64,000 nucleotides of DNA from Gemmatimonadota bacterium (lineage in GTDB: Bacteria > Gemmatimonadota > Gemmatimonadetes > Longimicrobiales > Gaopeijiaceae): positions 62,001 through 126,000 of the forward strand of contig JAJDXM010000024.1 of assembly GCA_022823225.1 (NCBI GenBank), given 5' to 3'. Below, piece after piece: positions 20,493 through 63,337 of the stretch (positions within the stretch are counted from its first letter, which is position 1; each line of letters opens with the position of its first letter). The notes below the pieces were generated by a model. That model was not told the DNA's origin and made no database searches. It saw only the letters and a program-made list of their open reading frames with translations. A program made the translations under genes and the position numbers.

Positions 20493-21035
20493 ATGAGTGA
20501 CGAAAGTGTAAAGCAAACATTACATGATGTAAAGCGTACAATACATTTTCGTCTGCTGACTCCGGACGACTGGCCAGCCGTCTCCGAGATCTACCGGCAG
20601 GGGATCGCGTCCGGCGATGCGACCTTCGAGACCCGGGTGCCCGACTGGAAGAGCTGGGACGCCGCGCGCAGCCCGGACTGCCGGATCATCGCGGAAGTGG
20701 ACGGGCAGGTCGTGGGGTTCGGAGGACTGAGCCCGGTGTCCGGACGGCCCGTCTACGCCGGCGTTCGCGAGGTCATGATCTATGTCGCCCAGTCGGCGCG
20801 CGGCCACGGCGTCGGGGGACGTATGCTCCGCAGGCTTGTCGCAGAGACCGAAGCGCTCGGGATCTGGACGCTGCAGGCCGGGATCTTTCCCGAAAACGCG
20901 GCATCGATCCGGATCTTCGAGAATGCCGGCTTCCGGATCCTGGGAACCCACGAGCGCCTGGGCCGCTTCCATGACGGGCGCTGGCGCGACGTGGTGCTGA
21001 TGGAGCGGCGGAGCCGGGTGGCGGGGAGGGATTGA
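20493..21035 (+). CDS. GNAT N-acetyltransferase, phosphinothricin-acetyltransferase-like
   Basis: 180 residues. The GNAT fold begins at FRLLTPDDWPAVSEIYRQGI (residue 19) and includes DATFET, the beta strand with VGFGGLSPVSGR, the acetyl-CoA loop SARGHGVGGRMLRRL (Q/R-x-x-G-x-G/A form), and a C-terminal NAASIRIFENAGFR. This order is that of the phosphinothricin/methionine-sulfone acetyltransferase group. Residues 6-18 (VKQTLH through TIH) are coded by a strikingly AT-rich stretch and lie before the domain, so they look like an added N-terminal extension. The ribosome site before ATG 20493 is poor. Confidence 0.87.
   Translation: MSDESVKQTLHDVKRTIHFRLLTPDDWPAVSEIYRQGIASGDATFETRVPDWKSWDAARSPDCRIIAEVDGQVVGFGGLSPVSGRPVYAGVREVMIYVAQSARGHGVGGRMLRRLVAETEALGIWTLQAGIFPENAASIRIFENAGFRILGTHERLGRFHDGRWRDVVLMERRSRVAGRD
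20507..20546 (+). repeat. AT-rich in-frame repeat element, copy A (in GNAT gene)
   Basis: Forty bases at about 30% GC inside very GC-rich DNA. They contain TGTAA, 8 bases, TTACA (20507-20524), then TTACAT-G-ATGTAA (20520-20532), and end in ATACAT. A second copy at 54045-54084 agrees at 28 of 40 positions, and at 16 of 18 in the first inverted repeat. Both copies are on the plus strand and read in the same frame, giving V(K/R)xTLHx4T(I/L)H. Confidence 0.6.
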
Positions 21036-52753: not shown

Positions 52754-53731
52754 ATGGGGTCCGTGGGTGTGCTCATGGAGGTGACGCGCGCGCAGGCCTG
52801 GATTCTGGCGACCCGGCCTCGAACTCTTTCGGCGGCTGCGGCCCCGGTTGTCGCCGGTTCCGGCTTCGCCGCGGTCGACGGTGTCTTCGCTCAGCTTGCG
52901 GCGCTGGCCGCGCTGGTGGGGGCTCTCCTCATCCAGATCGCCACGAACCTCGCGAACGACTACTACGACTTCGTGAAGGGCGGCGACACCGGGGACCGGC
53001 TGGGCCCGGTTCGGGTGACCCAGGCGGGCATCCTCCCGCCCGAAGCCGTGTTCCGCGGGATGGTCGTGGTGCTGGCGCTGGCGCTTGTCACAGGGGCGTA
53101 TCTGGTCTGGATCGCGGGGTGGCCGGTCGCCGTGGTGGGGTTGGTGTCGATGCTCATGGGGGTCGGGTACACCGGTGGGCCGTACCCCCTCTCCTACCAC
53201 GGCCTGGGCGATGTCTTCGTCTTCGTCTTCTTCGGCCCGGTGGCGACGGCGACCACCTACTACGTGCAAGCGGGGGTGTGGTCGCCGGGAGCGATCGTGG
53301 CCGGGGCGGGACTCGGCGCCTTCAGCACCGCGATGCTGGTGGTGAACAACCTGCGCGACCGCGAGACGGACGGGGCGGCGGGCAAGCGCACGCTCGCCGT
53401 GCGGTTTGGCGACCGCTTCTCGGTGGTGCAGTACTTCGGGTGTCTCGCGGCGGCGGCGCTCGTGCCGCTCGCGGGCGTGTACCTGATGGGGTGGTCGGGG
53501 TGGACGATGCTCGCGCTGGCGGGGCTGGCTCCGTGCCTTCCCGCCGCCGGGCGCGTGCTGGCGGTGCTTCGAGGCAACGGTGCCGGCTCCGGGACGGACG
53601 GGCGGCCCACCCTCGACCGCCGCACCCTCAATCCGGCGCTGGGCATGACCGCTCGTGGTGTTGCCCTGTACGGTGCGGGCCTCGGGGTCGGCGCGCTGCT
53701 CGGGGCGCTGACCGGCATCGGTTCCCCTTGA
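52754..53731 (+). CDS. menA: 1,4-dihydroxy-2-naphthoate polyprenyltransferase
   Basis: 325 residues, UbiA family, eight to nine membrane segments. The first Asp-rich motif is NLANDYYDFVKGGD and the second NNLRDRETDGAAGKRTLAVRFG. The N-terminal AWILATRPRTLSAAAAPV is typical of MenA. It attaches the isoprenoid tail in the membrane. The start is uncertain: ATG 52754 is listed, but GTG 52766 and ATG 52775 also keep the whole domain and no start has a good ribosome site. The stop overlaps the menE start (TTGA). Confidence 0.93.
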   Translation: MGSVGVLMEVTRAQAWILATRPRTLSAAAAPVVAGSGFAAVDGVFAQLAALAALVGALLIQIATNLANDYYDFVKGGDTGDRLGPVRVTQAGILPPEAVFRGMVVVLALALVTGAYLVWIAGWPVAVVGLVSMLMGVGYTGGPYPLSYHGLGDVFVFVFFGPVATATTYYVQAGVWSPGAIVAGAGLGAFSTAMLVVNNLRDRETDGAAGKRTLAVRFGDRFSVVQYFGCLAAAALVPLAGVYLMGWSGWTMLALAGLAPCLPAAGRVLAVLRGNGAGSGTDGRPTLDRRTLNPALGMTARGVALYGAGLGVGALLGALTGIGSP

Positions 53732-55263
53732 CCCCCCCCCACCTCACCCGGCACGCCCCCACGCCCGCCGACGACCTCGCCCGGCGCGCCCTCGAGCACC
53801 CCTCCGCCACCGCCGTCGCGTGGGATGGTGGATCGTGGAACTACCGCGAGCTGGACGCCCACGCGACGGCCCTCGCGGCACGCCTCCACACGCTCGGCGC
53901 GGCCCGGGGCGAGGCGGCGACCCTTTGCGCGACCCCGGGCCCGGAGGCGCTCGCCGCGCTCTTCGCCCTCTGGCGCGCGGGCGCGATCGCGGTGCCGCTC
54001 CACGAGCGGCTGGCACCCCCGGAGGTGGCATACGCTCGCCAAACTGTAAGGCCAACATTACATCTTGACAACTCGACTTTACATGCAGTGGCTGGCACGG
54101 ACCCCTTGACGGCGAGCTGGCCGGAGCCTCGGCCCTCGCCGGCGCCCTCGCCCCCCGACGCCCGCCCGCCCCCCACCACCTACGCCGCCTTCCCCGACCT
54201 CGCCGCCTTCATTCTCACCTCCGGCTCCTCGGGCGCGCCGAAAGCCGTGGGCTTCACGCGCGACGCCTTTGCCGCCTCAGCCGCCGCGGTCACTCGGCGG
54301 CTCGACCTCGGCCCGGACGACCGCTGGGGGCTGTGCCTCTCGCCGGGACACATCGGCGGGCTGTCGCTGGTGGTGCGAGCCGTGATGACCGGGTCATCGG
54401 TGCGGACGTGGCCCCGCTTCGACCCCGGCGCCCTGGCGCGCGCGGTACTCGGCGGCGAAGTCACCCACCTGGCCCTGGTGCCGGTGATGCTGCGGCGCCT
54501 CCTGGCCCGCCTGGGCGGTCGCCCCGTCCCGCCCACGCTCCGCTGCGTGCTCGTGGGCGGTGCTGCTGCGCGCCCCGCGCTCCTCGACGAGGCCTTCGGC
54601 GCCGGCCTCCCCCTCGCCACCACCTGGGGCATGACCGAGACCGCTTCGCAGATCGCCACCGCGCCCCCCGACCTCGCCCGCCGGCATCCCGGCACCGCGG
54701 GACGCCCGCTGCACGGCGTGGAGGTCCGCCGGGATCCTTCCGGCACCTTCTCCGTGCGGAGCCCTGCGCTGGCGCAGGTGGTGGTGCGCAGCCCCGGCAT
54801 GCCGCCCGAGCCGCTGGCCACCGACGCCGACGGGTGTTTCGCCACGCGCGACTTCGGACGGATGGATGCGGACGGCCTCCTCTGGATCGAGGGCCGGGCC
54901 GGGGCGATCATTGTGAGCGGGGGGCTGAACGTGAGTCCCCGCGAGGTGGAGCGGGCGATCGAGACGCTGCCGGATGTGCGCGAGGCGGTGGTCTTCGGCC
55001 TGCCCGACGGCGAGTGGGGCGAGATGGTTGCGGCCGTGGTGGAAGGCGACCGGGACGCCGTCACCGCCGGGGACATCGACCGCCACTGCCGGGAGCGGCT
55101 GGTCCGCGGCCGGTGCCCGTCGCGGATCCTCGTGGTGGAAAGGCTGCCCCGCACATGGACGGGGAAGGTGATCCGGGCGAAGGTGAGCGAGGAGTACGGA
55201 CCGGGTCTGGCGGCTACGCGCGCCCCGCCGAACAGGAACGAGACGACAGGGGAGACGAGATGA
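53728..55263 (+). CDS. menE: o-succinylbenzoate-CoA ligase
   Basis: 511 residues from TTG 53728, overlapping menA; the longer open frame upstream is only antisense-free shadow of menA. ANL adenylate-forming family: P-loop FILTSGSSGAPKAVGFT, TTWGMTETASQ, the hinge/lysine block DFGRMDADGLLWIEGRAGAIIVSGG with NVSPREVE, and the last lysine in TWTGKVIRAK. The N-terminal part carries an AT-rich insert coding residues 107-119 and a proline-rich stretch after it (RPSPAPSPPDARPPP). The gene is coupled to tyrS (ATGA). Confidence 0.9.
   Translation: MTPPHLTRHAPTPADDLARRALEHPSATAVAWDGGSWNYRELDAHATALAARLHTLGAARGEAATLCATPGPEALAALFALWRAGAIAVPLHERLAPPEVAYARQTVRPTLHLDNSTLHAVAGTDPLTASWPEPRPSPAPSPPDARPPPTTYAAFPDLAAFILTSGSSGAPKAVGFTRDAFAASAAAVTRRLDLGPDDRWGLCLSPGHIGGLSLVVRAVMTGSSVRTWPRFDPGALARAVLGGEVTHLALVPVMLRRLLARLGGRPVPPTLRCVLVGGAAARPALLDEAFGAGLPLATTWGMTETASQIATAPPDLARRHPGTAGRPLHGVEVRRDPSGTFSVRSPALAQVVVRSPGMPPEPLATDADGCFATRDFGRMDADGLLWIEGRAGAIIVSGGLNVSPREVERAIETLPDVREAVVFGLPDGEWGEMVAAVVEGDRDAVTAGDIDRHCRERLVRGRCPSRILVVERLPRTWTGKVIRAKVSEEYGPGLAATRAPPNRNETTGETR
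54045..54084 (+). repeat. AT-rich in-frame repeat element, copy B (in menE)
   Basis: Forty bases of about 38% GC within GC-rich menE. TGTAA, 8 bases, TTACA (54045-54062) is the same inverted repeat as at 20507, and a second TTACAT lies exactly 21 bases after the first, as in copy A. Codons here (GTA, AGG, CCA, ACA, TTA, ACT) are rare elsewhere in the window. It codes VRPTLHLDNSTLH at residues 107-119 of MenE. Confidence 0.6.
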
Positions 55264-62776: not shown

Positions 62777-63259
62777 ATGCTTGAAGCGATAAAGGCCAGG
62801 ATATCGGACGAGGTCGAGGCGCTGACCCGCGAACTCAACGTCGAGCTTCCCGACCGGATCAAGAAGGCCGCCGAGTTGGGGGACCTGCGAGAGAACTCGG
62901 AGTACAAGTCGGCGCTGGAGCGGCAGCAGTTCGTTCAGGCACGGATCGGACACCTGGCCTGGCGAATGTCGGAATTGTCGAAGATCGACGTGAAGGACAT
63001 CCCCTCGGACCGGGTGGGCTTCGGTTCGACTGTGCGCGTGCTGAACGTTGCGACCGACGAAGAGACGACCTTCACGATCGTCGCCGGGGATTACATCGAT
63101 CTCGACGCGGGACACATCTCCCTGGACTCGCCGCTCGGAAGGGGACTGCTCGGGGCTCGCCAGGGAGACGATGTCGACATCACGCTTCCCGCGGGCGAGC
63201 GCCGTTTCCGGGTGGTCGAGCTCACGACCCTGCCGCAACAGCTGGCAGCCCGTGGATAA
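62777..63259 (+). CDS. greA: Transcription elongation factor GreA family
   Basis: 160 residues: an N-terminal coiled coil with the acidic tip GDLRENSEYKSALERQQ (the D and E that reach the RNA polymerase active site) and a C-terminal FKBP-like domain (DRVGFGSTVRVLN to SPLGRGLLGARQGDDVDITLP). It stimulates transcript cleavage in backtracked polymerase. The coil includes VQARIGHLAWRMSEL. ATG 62777 has a GCGAGG site. It is separate from purK by about 105 bases and convergent with the last gene. Confidence 0.92.
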   Translation: MLEAIKARISDEVEALTRELNVELPDRIKKAAELGDLRENSEYKSALERQQFVQARIGHLAWRMSELSKIDVKDIPSDRVGFGSTVRVLNVATDEETTFTIVAGDYIDLDAGHISLDSPLGRGLLGARQGDDVDITLPAGERRFRVVELTTLPQQLAARG

Positions 63260-63337
63260 ACCCGCGTGAGCACCGCGGCCAGCCCGGATGCATTCGCCGC
63301 TCGAATGCCGCGTGGGTTTTGTCCATGGGCTGCTTCG

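Follow-up and report, generated by a model that had tools for sequence, protein, structure and literature searches.

A 39-bp twin-dyad element conserved at the DNA level within and between genes of a Gemmatimonadota genus: a putative paired docking site of a protein with a global or architectural role

The stretch of 64,000 nucleotides analysed here (the window) contains two copies of a 39-bp element which, on the balance of the sequence comparisons, is rather probably a paired docking site at which a global or architectural protein, sequence-specific and peculiar to one genus, would bind the DNA. The computations revealed an element family with a fixed 21-bp pitch, restricted to one genus, with footprint-like conservation, selection on codons in the menE and smc genes, and carriage by a MITE, and no preference of the sites for promoters, for an orientation or for a chromosomal region. 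That a protein occupies the element and acts globally is what we infer from these properties. The features of the window were as follows.

20493..21035, + strand: GNAT acetyltransferase gene (Pfam Acetyltransf_1, 2.1e-13); the element forms codons 6-17 of the longest reading, or the start region
20507..20545, + strand: twin-dyad element no. 1, 39 bp, with the dyads 21 bp apart from start to start
20507..20524, no strand: dyad A of element no. 1, TGTAAAGCAAACATTACA, an exact match to TGTAA-N8-TTACA
20528..20545, no strand: dyad B of element no. 1, TGTAAAGCGTACAATACA, one mismatch to TGTAA-N8-TTACA
53728..55263, + strand: menE-like gene for an AMP-binding enzyme (PF00501, 1.2e-53; PF13193, 8.3e-14), which holds element no. 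2 in frame
54045..54083, + strand: twin-dyad element no. 2, 39 bp, kept at this position in 19 of the 20 menE orthologs of the genus, own genome counted
54045..54062, no strand: dyad A of element no. 2, TGTAAGGCCAACATTACA, an exact match to TGTAA-N8-TTACA
54066..54083, no strand: dyad B of element no. 2, TGACAACTCGACTTTACA, the second unit at +21
63245..63333, no strand: 89-bp short form of a MITE-like repeat, without the core, with termini GCAGCCCGTGGA...TCCATGGGCTGC

An earlier note on this DNA had singled out the two elements for their resemblance, their AT-richness and their second unit 21 bases on, and all three observations were borne out. Of the 40 bases of 20507-20546, 28 are identical in 54045-54084, including 16 of the first 18; the GC contents of the two stretches are 30% and 37.5%, respectively, versus 69% in the window. 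With no more than one mismatch allowed, TGTAA-N8-TTACA was found at three sites in the window (20507, 20528, and 54045), against 0.03 expected. Alignment of 53 copies from the genome to which the window belongs (the own genome) revealed two 18-bp palindromes with a pitch of 21 bp, not one palindrome; the 39-bp consensus reads TGTAAaGt-nn-ACtTTACA, then three mostly A/T bases, then TGTCATGTTTACCATACa, and the conservation has sharp edges on either side of it. The second unit was present at the 21-bp spacing in nearly every exact copy inspected. Each element comprises four TGT(A/C)AwG half-sites spaced about 11, 10, and 11 bp apart, which puts all four on the same helix face. The five copies in unbiased stretches of the own genome each scored 19 of 20 half-site positions, with none at 15–18. 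By a generic 20-position score, elements of the more densely populated relative G011 scored mostly 19–20, with few lower, and shuffled sequence yielded zero elements. About 53.8 bits were conserved, a value inflated by the score threshold of the collection, versus the 16.2 bits needed to locate about 115 sites, which suggests either that two or more protein units bind or that the binding has to be very stable.

The whole-genome search for the 18-base motif that had been proposed together with these observations did not end in an absence of other copies: the own genome (4.19 Mb, 97 contigs) contained 144 dyads with one mismatch at most, versus 10 for the reversed control pattern. The element was found in 22 of the 23 genomes of the genus, with 13–368 exact dyads each, and exact dyads numbered 0–1 per genome in 36 outgroup genomes (12 genomes belonging to the family but to different genera, and 24 to the order); most of the genomes compared were MAGs. 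A composite-pattern scan of 84,980 species gave matches almost only in Gemmatimonadota MAGs, many of them from sponges as judged by isolate names, and, according to the literature and taxonomy, the element-bearing genus is probably Candidatus Palauibacter. A phage origin was rejected, the 25 scattered exact matches in 2.9 million viral contigs being judged chance-like. No earlier report of the element was found in a limited search of the open-access literature.

The complete chromosome OX639991.1 (L065/L080/L109), labelled 'Longimicrobiales', carries the element family and is apparently G022 of the window's genus. On the complete chromosome G022, 77 sites were found, with a coefficient of variation of the gaps of 1.03 (random, 0.98), a chi-square p of 0.46, and 42 of the 77 sites on the + strand; neither regional clustering nor strand polarity of the parS/matS/KOPS type was seen among them, and replication-linked polarity was rejected on the same chromosome. 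Sites were densest in G011, the smallest genome of the genus, with 368 exact dyads over 2.8 Mb; its inner consensus was shifted (one of the dyads has CCATGG), which might reflect co-evolution of the site with its binder there. G009 was the sole genus member with zero exact dyads. It contained one twin-dyad-like site (L353:6484-6522, 17/20) upstream of an apparently broken reading frame, called AlbA_2-like from its sequence and not from a profile search; followed as a lead to the binder, this site and its neighbour yielded nothing clear. In the smc tree, G009 and G011 together took a weakly supported basal position in the genus, so that the tree does not separate a loss in G009 from a system that originated later. 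G009 either lost the system or never had it, and can serve as a natural control.

The two window genes belong to different families, as had been noted earlier: by their Pfam matches, one encodes a GNAT acetyltransferase and the other an AMP-binding enzyme, which agrees with menE. The comparison of menE homologs, likewise proposed earlier, located the element in frame at one and the same position in all orthologs of the genus but that of G009, with the length unchanged, and in the syntenic region around the window the menE site was the only one common to all species compared. A conserved leucine was encoded by TTA in 19 of 19 element-bearing species and a histidine by CAT, also in 19 of 19. TTA made up 14 of 9532 leucine codons (0.15%) in the sampled genes of the own genome and was missing among the codons listed for 24 other conserved menE leucines. 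The element-free menE of G009 is of equal length and encodes IVDPALHIDDD by GTC GAT CCC GCG CTC CAC ATC GAC, whereas the other menE sequences of the genus have V-x-x-x-LHxDN with the codons TTA CAT and mostly ATT. Since rare codons are kept in menE and the same residues are encoded by GC-rich codons in G009, selection acts on the DNA sequence; ordinary protein descent cannot explain the codon pattern. A second AMP-binding enzyme with an in-frame element (VDNSSLHYVNFASH), resembling the menE case, was observed in G001 (L360).

The smc gene carries the element at one coiled-coil position in 22 of 22 element-bearing genomes of the genus (22 of 23 overall), with cysteine encoded by TGT in 22 of 22 cases and threonine by ACA in 42 of 43. 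The 21-bp pitch is visible in the smc of some species as a seven-residue repeat, CKAELTSCKAELTS, and the second dyad is degenerate in part of the genus. In G009 and 12 outgroup smc genes, this place is GC-rich coding sequence without the element or such residues, and smc aligns to them without an insert or a gap. In the own genome, a further copy was found in the C-terminal arm of ValRS.

It had been suggested in the earlier note that a small mobile palindrome is tolerated as a peptide insert, a proposal that draws on two unrelated genes reading through the element in the same frame. The shared frame is true of both window elements and carries no weight, because frames 1 and 3 hold stops in both of them and frame 2 alone is open; the smc and ValRS copies are read in frame 1. 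Rickettsia palindromic elements are repeats read in frame inside unrelated genes (PMC10969869); they are insertions of about 150 bp, whereas in menE and smc there is no insertion, and codons and residues are conserved. The absence of any gap in element-free orthologs, together with the retention of the menE residues by GC-rich codons, refutes the proposal for menE and smc, and the GNAT site lies at the gene start; overall, an origin as an in-frame peptide insert can be regarded as very improbable.

For 14 orthologous site pairs, substitutions amounted to 4% in the half-sites, 14% in the inner positions, 38% in the spacer, and 47% in the flanks, a profile that is of the type a protein footprint would leave. 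An alternative reading is a structured RNA element in untranslated regions, as the dyads could form hairpins and copies occur in 5' and 3' gene flanks, often just past stop codons. However, base-pair covariation was at or below chance at most of the variable dyad positions, with a G-C correlation in one position pair (27/32; 6/11 in MITE copies), strand bias was nil, and the element had no match in Rfam; the RNA reading was therefore rejected and appears scarcely credible. REP and BIME sequences are extragenic, often situated past stop codons, and present in tens to hundreds of copies, and REPs rely on hairpin pairing. The element differs from them in its little dyad pairing covariation and in its AT-richness.

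The mobility supposed in the earlier note was confirmed in another form than that of a peptide insert, namely, a 247-bp MITE-like repeat that carries the core, and stand-alone copies that are gained or lost between species. Strong flank similarity united 50 of 181 elements into a repeat with the ends GCAGyCCGTGGA...TCCACGGrCTGC. In the own genome, this MITE-like family numbers about 40 copies (C41, C63, C7, and others) in three nested sizes of ~247, 171, and 89 bp; in the longest, the core is at offset 78. Terminal inverted repeats surround a core in the 247-bp copies only; the 171- and 89-bp forms are without it, and the core is thus seemingly dispensable for mobility. Clear MITE arms were seen at neither of the window elements (20507 and 54045), a lenient search flagging 20507 weakly. 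In total, 223 distinct elements were collected as a sample of the sites, the own genome being sampled in stretches; at a lenient threshold, 93 had MITE-resembling flanks and 130 were stand-alone. A clean empty site was found for a MITE copy (L131 versus L145/L154 of relatives). For stand-alone copies, only one clean empty counterpart was found, in the comparison of L165/L074 with L156: a 66-bp segment separates two genes whose counterparts in another species overlap as TGATG. Between 29369 and 30049 of the window, ends resembling those of the family flank a coding-like stretch at a distance of ~680 bp, and these may be two partial MITE copies or a larger relative. Contig L099 (JAAXGQ010000014.1, labelled Vicinamibacteraceae) is probably a mis-binned contig of the window's genus, given that it contains a core-bearing MITE and stretches ~74-76% identical to L031 of the own genome.

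These data bear on whether the sites are relics or carriers of a selfish MITE family, with the core serving mobility or maintenance under weak host selection. The fixed offset of the core in the 247-bp unit, the empty sites, and the many lineage-specific positions agree with this explanation, and the intergenic turnover between species, which would be expected of a purely selfish mobile element too, speaks against the docking reading. The selfish-element explanation is opposed by the shorter MITE forms that do without the core, by the solo copies that retain the core alone and intact, and by the menE and smc sites, which did not come from insertion and whose codons are fixed throughout the genus. 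A purely selfish element is consequently considered improbable. Correia elements of Neisseria are a MITE with a binding site for the nucleoid-associated protein IHF (PMC10969869), and the present MITE similarly carries a putative protein-binding site; unlike in Correia elements, most of the sites lie outside the MITE (130 of 223 at the lenient threshold) and are footprint-conserved, and some in-gene sites arose in place.

Gene context was obtained with a home-made caller based on GC by codon position, not with a published gene finder. Stand-alone copies were mostly intergenic, with solo densities of 0.57, 0.39, and 0.49 per kb in tandem, divergent, and convergent gaps, respectively; neither promoter enrichment nor an excess in divergent over convergent gaps was seen among the solo sites. 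They often begin just past a stop codon, at a median distance of 22 bp, and several have the stop codon itself supplied by the TAA of TGTAA; their orientation relative to neighbouring genes was 38:35. Many intergenic positions turn over between species or are lineage-specific. The genes adjoining the sites showed no functional theme, and no recurrent HTH family was present among the top 25 Pfam families listed for the neighbours, for which reason an autoregulated binder gene was rejected. A PadR operator tied to ADOP permeases was likewise rejected: the genome has 5 PadR genes, and the element is near one such locus only. An element between exonuclease III-like and amidohydrolase-like genes was observed both in the own genome (L253:15277) and in G001 (L365:3355), and this intergenic site is possibly old and conserved.

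In the GNAT gene, the element was at the gene start in 8 further species, the remaining species being without it; since most of these sites lie at the translation start, the earlier placement inside two genes holds for menE, in frame, and less so for GNAT. In several species, the start ATG falls inside the second dyad, as might be expected if the element were the operator of an ordinary global transcription factor (TyrR- or NtrC-like with a Fis-type HTH, or Lrp-like) with a strong and a weak box, gene-near sites controlling those genes and internal sites acting as roadblocks. The TyrR box has the consensus TGTAAA-N6-TTTACA with an invariant G-N14-C (PMC4374768). Each dyad matches this box: in dyad A, position 1 was G and position 16 was C in 130 of 130 solo sites, and in dyad B this held for 98%, and the strict and the degenerate dyad resemble a pair of strong and weak boxes, which in TyrR/PhhR of Gammaproteobacteria are also adjacent 18-bp dyads (PMC4374768). 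In contrast to TyrR boxes, the sites number tens to hundreds, and neither an aromatic-pathway theme nor a promoter preference was present; promoters of aromatic amino acid genes were not favoured, the neighbours being mixed. The search for HTH_50 gave generic NtrC-family matches in all relatives, including site-free genera, with some genus members below the cut-off, and singled out no protein distributed like the sites; such generic matches do not favour a TyrR-type HTH as the binder. An ordinary operator is accordingly a less likely alternative, albeit one that deserves to be kept in view. A regulator site within coding DNA, as the earlier note had also proposed, is upheld insofar as the element is a selected, DNA-level site of protein-binding type; a regulatory function of it is hypothetical.

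An architectural or roadblock role of the putative docking site would account better than a classical operator for the random placement, the indifference to promoters, and the fixation inside genes. The absence of promoter preference is negative evidence, and enhancer-type and roadblock regulators likewise bind far from promoters. The binder would thus more likely be of a chromosome-organising or roadblock/insulator type than an operator protein of a defined pathway, with two dimers or one tetramer binding the twin-dyad site very stably. The sites may arise in place by point changes, as in menE and smc, or may be dispersed or turned over, with the MITE as one carrier, and selection would keep them once present. 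parS, Noc sites, and matS are short palindromes found in tens of copies within and between genes, irrespective of gene function; the element differs from them in the lack of regional clustering on the complete chromosome, in its twin dyads, and in its faster turnover. A more far-reaching interpretation, which is put forward tentatively and falls clearly short of an even chance, is a genus-specific chromosome-organising or insulating system, in which a protein would have to occupy tens to hundreds of twin sites of very high information content, irrespective of transcription units, selection would reshape the Smc coiled coil (two Cys-containing seven-residue repeats in some species) and hold ultra-rare menE codons, and a MITE would have been co-opted to scatter the sites.

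A DNA site that prevails over protein coding across a whole genus is rarely seen, and here one DNA motif fixes TTA, CAT, TGT, and ACA codons in smc and menE over about 20 diverged species. If the binder were a new global or architectural protein, the sites would provide a ready site map and a direct test of site origin (in place versus on the MITE), as well as a handle on the chromosome biology of an uncultured, largely sponge-associated branch of the Gemmatimonadota.
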